64,000 bases of DNA. It comes from Melioribacter roseus P3M-2 (GTDB lineage Bacteria; Bacteroidota; Ignavibacteria; Ignavibacteriales; Melioribacteraceae). The translations under genes and the position numbers were made by a program. The notes beneath the pieces are model-generated. The model had not been told where the DNA came from. It saw only the letters and a program-made list of their open reading frames with translations, and searched no databases. The DNA lies in assembly GCF_000279145.1 (NCBI RefSeq), contig NC_018178.1, forward strand, positions 2,524,001 to 2,588,000. Direction: 5' to 3'. Within the stretch, counting starts at the first letter, position 1; each line of letters opens with the position of its first letter. Positions 57,791 to 58,726 of the stretch are shown one piece after another.

Positions 57791-57879
57791 CGGAGAGGGC
57801 GGGATTCGAACCCGCGGTACCCCATTCAGAGTACGACGGTTTAGCAAACCGTTGGTTTCAGCCACTCACCCACCTCTCC
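57791..57879 (-). tRNA. tRNA-Ser, anticodon GCU
   Basis: The minus strand folds as a class II tRNA: acceptor GGAGAGG with CCTCTCC and discriminator G, anticodon stem ACGGT/ACCGT around TTGCTAA (anticodon GCT, reads AGC/AGU), a long variable arm with GTAC/GTAC, and T arm GCGGGTTCGAATCCCGC. The CCA end is not encoded. Upstream of its 5' end lie the GIY-YIG repeat units, each carrying a copy of the tRNA's 5' part. Confidence 0.95.
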
Positions 57880-57917
57880 GAGCTGAAAATTTTACAATAC
57901 TGAATTTAACTCAAAAA

Positions 57918-58160
57918 TTATTTCTCAATCAATCTGCGAAAAGCTTCGCCGTTTTTGTAACTTTTTATCTGCATTTCCCGCTTGAAAGCTTCCGATTTAG
58001 AGTTAAATTCTTCCAAATAAACAATCTTCCAAGGAACATAAGGCTTAGTCGATCTGACTTTGCCTCGGTTATGGTCTTTCAATCTTTTTTCGTAATCAGC
58101 AGTATGACCAATATAATATCTTTCCCTTATTACACTCTTTAGTATGTAAACATAATACAT
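57918..58160 (-). CDS. GIY-YIG nuclease, copy 1
   Basis: 80-aa single-domain GIY-YIG nuclease. The motif appears as YYVYILKS followed by YYIGHTADYEKRLKDHN. It continues with the catalytic Arg/Glu region KPYVPWKIVYLEEFNSKSEA and FKREMQIKSYK. Small stand-alone proteins of this type are widespread and mostly uncharacterised; relatives are UvrC-type and homing endonucleases. The start is the ATG before YYVY; the frame is open upstream only because it runs through the tRNA fragment. It lies between a partial and the complete tRNA-Ser. Confidence 0.9.
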   Translation of the reverse strand: MYYVYILKSVIRERYYIGHTADYEKRLKDHNRGKVRSTKPYVPWKIVYLEEFNSKSEAFKREMQIKSYKNGEAFRRLIEK

Positions 58161-58165
58161 AGAGT

Positions 58166-58236
58166 CAAACCGTTGGTTTTTCCGCCTTCGGCGGAACCTC
58201 GCCGGGAAGCGATGGCAGCCACTCACCCACCTCTCC
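58166..58236 (-). pseudogene. tRNA-Ser 5' fragment with D-loop insert, unit 1
   Basis: On the minus strand the fragment starts like the intact tRNA (GGAGAGGTGGGTGAGTGGCTG), then carries a 36-base insert that can form two small hairpins (one is TTCCGCC-GAA-GGCGGAA). It resumes with AACCAACGGTTTG and stops at the anticodon, seven bases before the nuclease ATG. It cannot make a working tRNA. Confidence 0.85.
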
Positions 58237-58274
58237 GAGCTGAAAATTTTACAATACTGAATTTAACTCAAAAA

Positions 58275-58517
58275 TTATTTCTCAATCAATCTGCGAAAAG
58301 CTTCGCCGCTTTTGTAACTTTTTATCTGCATTTCCCGCTTGAAAGCTTCCGATTTAGAGTTAAATTCTTCCAAATAAACAATCTTCCAAGGAACATAAGG
58401 CTTAGTCGATCTGACTTTGCCTCGGTTATGGTCTTTCAATCTTATTTCGTAATCAGCAGTATGTCCAATATAATATCTTTCCCTTATTTCACTCTTTAGT
58501 ATGTAAACATAATACAT
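58275..58517 (-). CDS. GIY-YIG nuclease, copy 2
   Basis: 80-aa duplicate of the adjacent nuclease, 357 bases away. It differs at three visible residues (EIRER for VIRER, EIRL for EKRL, KSGEAF for KNGEAF); all core motif residues (YYVYILKS, YYIGHT, Arg and Glu of the later motifs) are kept, so both copies look intact. It is flanked on both sides by tRNA-Ser 5' fragments. Confidence 0.9.
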   Translation of the reverse strand: MYYVYILKSEIRERYYIGHTADYEIRLKDHNRGKVRSTKPYVPWKIVYLEEFNSKSEAFKREMQIKSYKSGEAFRRLIEK

Positions 58518-58522
58518 AGAGT

Positions 58523-58593
58523 CAAACCGTTGGTTTTTCCGCCTTCGGCGGAACCTCGCCGGTAGGCGATGGCAGCCACTCACCCACCTCTCC
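58523..58593 (-). pseudogene. tRNA-Ser 5' fragment with D-loop insert, unit 2
   Basis: Same structure as the fragment at 58166 with two base changes in the insert (GTAGGC for GGAAGC on the + strand) that improve its second hairpin. It ends at the anticodon just before nuclease copy 2. Confidence 0.85.
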
Positions 58594-58631
58594 GAGCTGA
58601 AAATTTTACAATACTGAATTTAACTCAAAAA

Positions 58632-58726
58632 TTATTTCTCAATCAATCTGCGAAAAGCTTCGCCGCTTTTGTAACTTTTTATCTGCATTTCCCGCTTGAA
58701 AGCTTCCGATTTAGAGTTAAATTCTT
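58632..58726 (-). pseudogene. Truncated third GIY-YIG copy
   Basis: Only the last 31 or so residues of the nuclease remain (matching NSKSEAFKREMQIKSYKSGE and the end EAFRRLIEK, with the stop in place). Homology to the other copies stops abruptly at about 58726, marking the outer edge of the repeat array. Confidence 0.85.

Follow-up and report, generated by a model that had tools for sequence, protein, structure and literature searches.

SegB of phages T4 and T6 is a free-standing GIY-YIG homing endonuclease that cuts inside tRNA genes; its cleavage motif is RAWTSGAAC, in phage T6 it is found in a tandem tRNA and segB unit of 718 bp, and the accessible part of the report leaves open how it spares its own locus (PMC13096335). 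In fungal mitochondria, the available text describes mobile ORFs of Glomus and Allomyces that enter the atp6, atp9, cox2 and nad3 genes and give the gene a new end, the native end being displaced beyond the ORF, and one of these mobile ORFs has a GIY-YIG domain (PMC3630166). In CPR bacteria, rRNA genes carry insertion sequences that encode GIY-YIG proteins, are dissimilar to group I and group II introns and are located mostly at the tops or bases of stem-loops; in the accessible portion of that study, the GIY-YIG of these insertions is judged to lie outside spread by homing (PMC11270868). Among titles and abstract openings of the open-access literature, no tRNA-end-replacing nuclease elements were found reported in bacterial chromosomes.

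The window, which is the whole stretch of 64,000 nucleotides of Melioribacter roseus P3M-2 that was analysed, contains an intact tRNA-Ser(GCT) gene on the minus strand, and two units and a nuclease remnant stand 5' of it. Each unit is formed, in order, by tRNA nucleotides 1-21, a double hairpin of 36 nt, tRNA nucleotides 22-35, five bases, the ATG of an ORF of 80 amino acids and a spacer of 38 nt. The features of the locus are the following:

57790 to 57879, minus strand: intact tRNA-Ser(GCT), called by ARAGORN and matched by Rfam RF00005 at 57791-57879 with 60 bits
57918 to 58160, minus strand: GIY-YIG nuclease gene of unit 1, 80 amino acids (Pfam GIY-YIG, invariant residues, structure model with pLDDT 95)
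58166 to 58179, minus strand: displaced tRNA-Ser nucleotides 22-35 of unit 1 (exact recurrence)
58180 to 58215, minus strand: 36-nt double hairpin of unit 1, at the D-loop break of the displaced tRNA
58216 to 58236, minus strand: displaced tRNA-Ser nucleotides 1-21 of unit 1 (exact recurrence)
58275 to 58517, minus strand: GIY-YIG nuclease gene of unit 2, 80 amino acids (Pfam GIY-YIG)
58523 to 58536, minus strand: displaced tRNA-Ser nucleotides 22-35 of unit 2 (exact recurrence)
58537 to 58572, minus strand: 36-nt double hairpin of unit 2 (palindrome listed at 58537, and the sequence)
58573 to 58593, minus strand: displaced tRNA-Ser nucleotides 1-21 of unit 2 (exact recurrence)
about 58632 to 58726, minus strand: 5'-truncated (C-terminal) nuclease remnant, also present at the same locus in a sister species (G001)

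The units are repeated at a spacing of 357 bp and are 99% identical over 300 nt, and their two ORFs share 96% identity. Repeat analysis, ORFs, Pfam and tRNA calls all agree with the initial annotation, which had described two near-identical 357-bp units and a remnant at this tRNA, and the sequence also bears out its reading that the displaced fragment stops at the first anticodon base with the ATG five bases further on. Both tRNA pieces are exact repeats 5' of each nuclease ORF, and the aligned parts of the intact and displaced tRNA-Ser are identical. The displaced fragment had been taken as a clean 5' half of the tRNA and the unit as nuclease-only; neither description holds, as the GC-rich double hairpin splits each fragment between nucleotides 21 and 22, in the D loop, and the elements contain a tRNA end as well as the nuclease, usually together with a hairpin. 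The intact gene is the sole match at E≤1e-8 in a search of the M. roseus genome with tRNA-Ser(GCT).

An Rfam search of positions 57000-59600 at E≤1 returned only the tRNA and, overlapping it, a plastid UTR match below threshold, with no intron. A group I intron was ruled out, since this search gave no intron RNA in the interrupted gene. The nuclease gene is outside any intron or intein and adjoins its putative target tRNA, which is the arrangement of a free-standing homing endonuclease gene. A gene with a SIR2_2 domain (56189-57370, plus strand; Pfam E 2e-7) is located beside the tRNA array; its match to the NCBIfam anti-phage SIR2 model is weak, far below the cut-off, and it is a possible defence gene.

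The window nucleases match PF01541 above the cut-off, with Pfam GIY-YIG E-values of 9e-16 and 1e-14. Nine residues are invariant in 38 relatives, including Y5, Y16, G18, R26, H30 and E62, which we take to be the catalytic residues of GIY-YIG nucleases. The structure model is a bare GIY-YIG fold (pLDDT 95); it comes closest to UPF0213, which alone reaches E≤0.001, to Slx1 and to the catalytic domain of I-TevI. The solved structures closest by sequence are those of UPF0213 and Slx1. The window protein is thus akin to UPF0213, Slx1 and I-TevI in sequence or fold and differs from them in being a bare domain of 80 amino acids with no DNA-binding or partner domain. A pair of nucleases from congeners at tRNA-Pro has dN of 0.072 and dS of 1.65 over 79 codons, a mark of purifying selection on the tRNA-linked nuclease. 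In INPHARED, the window protein is without a match at 1e-6, and none of 39 relatives on viral contigs, which were found with a different alignment, is within 200 nt of a tRNA; a phage origin was discarded on these two results.

SegB and the window elements have in common a GIY-YIG gene beside tRNA genes and tandem repeats of tRNA and nuclease. SegB differs in being a phage gene and in losing its C-terminus in the repeats, and the accessible part of its report describes neither the replacement of a tRNA end nor a hairpin-broken copy (PMC13096335). The fungal ORFs, as far as the available text describes them, act on mitochondrial protein genes and on C-terminal ends, whereas the putative targets here are bacterial RNA genes, either end would be replaced and hairpins are present (PMC3630166). 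The CPR insertions also place GIY-YIG in structural RNA genes, but they lie inside rRNA, and no rebuilt end is described in the accessible portion of that source (PMC11270868).

The window array is one of several in this organism. The single-contig genome of 3.30 Mb contains 18 GIY-YIG matches, and 12 of them adjoin seven tRNA genes: three in tandem at Pro(CGG), two at Cys(GCA), two at Asp(GTC), two and the remnant at Ser(GCT), one at Asn(GTT), and one degenerate copy each at Leu(CAA) and Ser(CGA). At all of these except Ser(GCT), the nuclease stands 3' (downstream) of the intact gene. The far side of the ORF carries pieces of that gene at Pro, Cys, Asn, Asp and Ser(CGA), and no displaced piece was found there at Leu(CAA). 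At the Asn and Asp loci, a terminator-like hairpin 3' of the tRNA is also duplicated, and the displaced Asn part agrees exactly with the intact gene where the two align. Another retrieved locus (L017) has, at about 1294-1336, a stray piece of tRNA-Asp that contains a near-palindromic insert; no called tRNA is close to it, and the tRNA-Asp array is about 26 kb away.

Relatives were collected in two ways. The first set covers 20 genomes at the level of the order, M. roseus included, with small GIY-YIG ORFs near tRNA genes taken among the matches listed; it is made up of the loci returned and 60 listed places and omitted a few small ones (such as G011:C236, G009:C4:2-82 and G016:C26). In these 20 genomes, at least 48 called tRNA genes, including a Thr bystander at L057, are within 160 nt and on the same strand of a small GIY-YIG ORF. 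The second set is a scan of named genomes by protein sequence alone, with the window's own nuclease clade as query; it gave 134 relatives, and the best 80 of them were used. The initial annotation had held that finding the same nuclease away from tRNA genes would count against its model; 72 of these 80 relatives have a tRNA no more than 200 nt away, in every case on the same strand, by distances that are based on an approximate nuclease end, and this objection failed. Among the best 80 of 134, 60 tRNA-labelled rows carry an NCBI phylum name, and these comprise 26 names, many of them Patescibacteria lineages.

A sister clade of small GIY-YIG proteins, presumably UPF0213/COG2827-like, has 24 rows from these 20 genomes among the matches listed, and in none of them does a tRNA lie on the same strand within 800 nt. 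On the tRNA-linked side of the tree of the 20 genomes, 46 of the matches listed have a tRNA and 14 are without one; the latter have no tRNA on the same strand within 800 nt in the stretch retrieved, and two of them are at tmRNA genes. At one tmRNA locus (L044 of G012), the nuclease is directly 3' of the tmRNA and is followed by a displaced piece of the tmRNA 3' end whose T loop contains a hairpin-like insert (local score of 40, shuffle maximum of 28); no displaced fragment was found at the second tmRNA locus (L085), so one of the two is positive. A clade of nucleases from seven loci (L028, L052, L060, L068, L071, L086 and L089) is beside the Cys-type clade with no tRNA close, and two of its copies (L052, L089) start within 100 nt of a contig start. 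Rfam gave no match in these seven loci, and a further RNA target for this clade was dropped on that ground.

A fragment of the same tRNA beyond the nuclease is the feature that recurs with the gene. In the 20 genomes, among the matches listed, a far-side fragment with p<0.01 against shuffles is present at 36 of 47 testable sites, the L057 bystander being among them: 25 of 35 with the nuclease downstream and 11 of 12 with the nuclease upstream, one of these being the bystander tRNA. Among the best 80 of 134 relatives, it is found at 58 of 71 testable sites. Both sets were merged and de-duplicated to 115 sites. Loci that duplicate an array were dropped before the tallies (L002, L010, L011, L012, L015, L038, L039), and the merged fragment tallies are also without four loci that duplicate sites of the G genomes (L185, L194, L204, L221) and without the L057 bystander; two doubtful 'Ser GGA' calls (L083 and the second one at L065) were retained. 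The side of an element is defined by the nearest called tRNA, so that L229 and L247, which lie between two called tRNAs, may be misassigned.

In this merged set of the matches listed and the best 80 of 134, 94 of 115 sites have a piece of the same tRNA beyond the nuclease (52 of 61 upstream-type and 42 of 54 downstream-type), and at 21 none was found. The rebuilt tRNA with its old end displaced, which had been proposed for the window, is therefore the general anatomy. Upstream-type fragments begin at tRNA nucleotide 1 in 46 of 52 cases, and downstream-type fragments finish at the last tRNA nucleotide in 28 of 42. With called tRNAs masked, the far-side match remains at 89 of 113 sites, compared with 6 of 113 for a control tRNA of another isotype. 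The gene is whole again with its displaced end beyond the ORF, as in gene-end replacement (94 of 115; masked, 89 of 113). The flank across the intact tRNA from the nuclease also matches at 36 of 112 masked sites, a rate well above that of the wrong tRNA (6 of 113), and displaced copies are present on both sides at several sites, such as Cys in L004 and Thr in L252, which suggests repeated events or local duplication. At the Ser(GCT) locus of G017, the displaced part is unlike the intact D arm, a single case; a recoded and immune intact tRNA, at which this case hints, is not general, as neither the window nor Asn shows any difference between the aligned intact and displaced parts.

Fragments of tRNA-Ser(GCT) from the 3' end are also found away from the intact gene in G008 (L168) and G009 (L170), the former 8 kb from the intact tRNA-Ser on the same contig; these could be common scars of integration. 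Displaced copies in which a palindrome replaces an arm are called as tRNAs by ARAGORN (L083, and the second copies at L065 and L229). By our reading, the 'Ser GGA' of L083 would be a Pro copy with a replaced anticodon arm and a wrong identity. Palindrome-broken displaced copies are a source of false tRNA annotation.

In the merged set, 50 inserts are found within the fragments, at 44 of the 94 fragment-bearing sites, by a detection that can miss inserts at fragment ends. A perfect stem of at least 5 is present in 40 of the 50 inserts (shuffled mean 11.3, maximum 20) and a stem of at least 7 in 21 of them (mean 1.0 and maximum 5 in shuffles; mean 1.6 and maximum 8 in random segments taken from the same loci). 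The junction had been placed in the anticodon loop, and this is not general: downstream-type inserts are in the T arm in 20 of 24 cases, upstream-type inserts are in the D arm (19 of 26) or the anticodon arm (6 of 26), and some displaced copies, including copies at Pro, are nearly full length. The reverse complement of RAWTSGAAC, the SegB motif given in the accessible part of its report (PMC13096335), would by our reading correspond to the tRNA T loop, the arm of most downstream-type inserts. Four Asp elements of four genera have a common insert position and different palindromes, and among the best 80 of 134 relatives, double hairpins like those of the window are found in loci titled Saccharibacteria (L199) and Falkowbacteria (L186). 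The core CCCGCC-N(1-6)-GGCGGG is found at 43 places in the M. roseus genome, and its reversed control at none. The window contains nine GC-rich palindromes, two of which are those of the units, compared with 4-5 in shuffled sequence. Two small GIY-YIG genes of this genome that are not at tRNA genes (L006 near 597 kb and L007 near 3,125 kb) lie among repeats with the same CCCGCC..GGCGGG palindromes, so these palindromes accompany GIY-YIG genes of two kinds.

Nuclease clades follow the tRNA at which they reside, across phyla. In the 20-genome protein tree, the label formed by tRNA and side changes 12 times over the 46 rows listed, compared with a minimum of 11 and a shuffled mean of 33.8. The tree of the best 80 of 134 relatives is poorly resolved, with 16 of 78 inner branches well supported, and on it the isotype changes 15 times (minimum 7, shuffled 33.5) and the phylum, over 60 rows, 34 times (minimum 25, shuffled 44.2); both are clustered, the isotype more strongly. 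Side alone is weakly clustered on this tree, with 12 changes compared with a shuffled mean of 16.1 and 1 of 300 shuffles as low. Within the best 80 of 134, the window nuclease is 68% identical to one from Magasanikbacteria and 54% identical to one of its own family (L177, L204).

The closest comparison of the locus is with a congener (G001), whose flanks are 79% and 75% identical and in which the truncated remnant is directly 5' of the intact tRNA-Ser. The initial annotation had called for a relative without the insert; G001 is without the two window units, and it keeps the remnant, so that insertion and loss are not separable. Gain in M. roseus and loss by repeat recombination in G001 both fit, and this one close sister comparison gave no clean pair of empty and occupied alleles. 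The tRNA-Ser(GCT) genes of the window and G001 are only 78% identical, and the G001 gene shares 99% identity over 100 nt with its counterpart in another genus, a hint that the tRNA-Ser gene was replaced as a whole. Over the 20 genomes (L146-L165), tRNA-Ser(GCT) has two main D-arm types, which are mixed across families, and the type in G001 is that of another genus; tRNA genes may possibly be horizontally replaced. In G003, the displaced fragment is about 216 nt from the end of a common upstream flank, and in the element-free G006 the tRNA is about 170 nt from the end of the same flank, an arrangement that would be suggestive only as evidence of an empty site.

These elements are probably tiny homing-type units of a large family that inhabits tRNA genes and at least one tmRNA gene, each having a bare GIY-YIG gene and an end of its target. 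The nuclease would cut a tRNA gene without the element, and repair from an element-bearing copy would import the nuclease and a replacement end, by which the tRNA would become whole again. The old end of the host gene would be left beyond the nuclease as a dead piece, in most cases interrupted by a hairpin. Upstream-type elements, such as those of the window, would supply the tRNA 5' end and downstream-type elements the 3' end, while tandem units would be generated by repeated cutting or unequal recombination. The elements would be transferred between cells, the hairpins would have some role in the process and the rebuilt tRNA would escape cutting; the identity of intact and displaced tRNA in the window makes its self-protection hard to account for.

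The homing reading is based on the 12 of 18 own-genome matches at tRNA genes, the 72 of 80 relatives, the 94 of 115 fragments and the tRNA-matched clades, and also on the 89 of 113 far-side matches against 6 of 113 with the wrong isotype, the fragments that begin or finish at a tRNA boundary (46 of 52 and 28 of 42), the purifying selection seen between congeners at Pro, the 26 phylum names, the tmRNA case of L044 and two negative controls, which are the viral-contig relatives and the sister clade; SegB, as the accessible part of its report describes, cuts within tRNA genes (PMC13096335). Points against it are the 36 of 112 other-side matches and the two-sided copies, which fit local duplication too, the 21 of 115 sites without a fragment, the clustering by phylum, the weak clustering of side alone, the 16 of 78 supported branches, the 14 tRNA-less rows, the remnant kept in G001, and the identical intact and displaced fragments of the window. 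A wider proposal, which we offer tentatively, is a selfish class of about 350 bp across phyla, in which the hairpins in the arms of the displaced copy would be generated by the nuclease, itself a sensor of hairpins, or would guard against it, and gene rebuilding and hairpin insertion would be one mechanism. In its full form, which is equally doubtful, each member would be a cassette of bare GIY-YIG gene, tRNA or tmRNA end and hairpin that homes from either side.

The main rival is local amplification only, in which an old neighbour nuclease would cut the tRNA and cause tandem duplication with no transfer from locus to locus or cell to cell. It would account for the tandem units, for the difference of whole units in G001, for the near full-length displaced copies at Pro and for the two-sided copies with their 36 of 112 other-side matches, and SegB yields a tandem tRNA and segB unit of 718 bp according to the accessible part of its report (PMC13096335). 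The displaced fragments would then be decaying duplicate tRNAs, an origin that we find unlikely: they are mostly one-sided and bounded by the tRNA start or end, and far-side matches (89 of 113) exceed other-side matches (36 of 112). A single clade at the same tRNA kind over many phyla also speaks against amplification in place, and the 68% identity to Magasanikbacteria against 54% within the family, among the best 80 of 134, would be hard to obtain without transfer, which makes this rival as a whole rather improbable.

REP palindromes with RAYT are short genomic palindromes accompanied by a small mobilising enzyme, and the hairpins could by analogy be the moving parts, entering hairpin loops and being mobilised by the GIY-YIG enzyme. 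The 40 of 50 inserts with a stem of at least 5 (shuffled mean 11.3), in tRNA arms, and the core at 43 own-genome places, some by the GIY-YIG genes of L006 and L007, are in favour of such an origin, and the predicted fold of the nuclease has the branched-DNA nuclease Slx1 among its nearest neighbours. The enzyme here is a GIY-YIG protein and not a tyrosine transposase as in REP/RAYT, and the replacement of one tRNA end and the matching of clades to tRNAs are left without account. Fragments that are hairpin-free or in a single piece also exist, as inserts are found at 44 of 94 sites (end inserts can be missed), and GC-rich palindromes are otherwise rare in the window (nine, including two in the units; shuffled 4-5). 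We consider it quite improbable that palindromes strike tRNA arms for being hairpins while the nuclease tags along, and small the chance that they are what moves.

A host role in tRNA processing or quality control, which would keep the nuclease by tRNA genes, agrees with same-strand adjacency and purifying selection, and is very improbable in view of the patchy presence, the many tRNA types and the degenerate copies (L014, L018, L026); tandem units and broken tRNA copies suit a selfish gene better. Remnants of an ordinary integrase island or chance duplication at a tRNA gene are the least credible origin and largely refuted for the window units, as these 357-bp units, with a single known-domain ORF (GIY-YIG) and no integrase between repeats, are too small for an integrase, duplication affects 5' as well as 3' ends and the recurrence is far above the wrong-tRNA control, even if the tRNA-Ser fragment of G008 (L168), 8 kb from the intact gene on the same contig, would be expected of them.

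What would be new in the homing reading is gene-end replacement by a homing endonuclease in bacterial chromosomes, on RNA genes and at either end. To our knowledge, tRNA-end elements would rank among the smallest homing units. It raises the question of how a bare domain of 80 amino acids distinguishes one tRNA gene from another. No splicing intron would be needed by an element that restores its target, and since tRNA genes are indispensable and strongly conserved, nearly every bacterium could be open to its invasion. If the reading is true, broken tRNA copies and some false tRNA calls would be accounted for, and gene-end replacement would be widened from fungal mitochondria to bacterial RNA genes.
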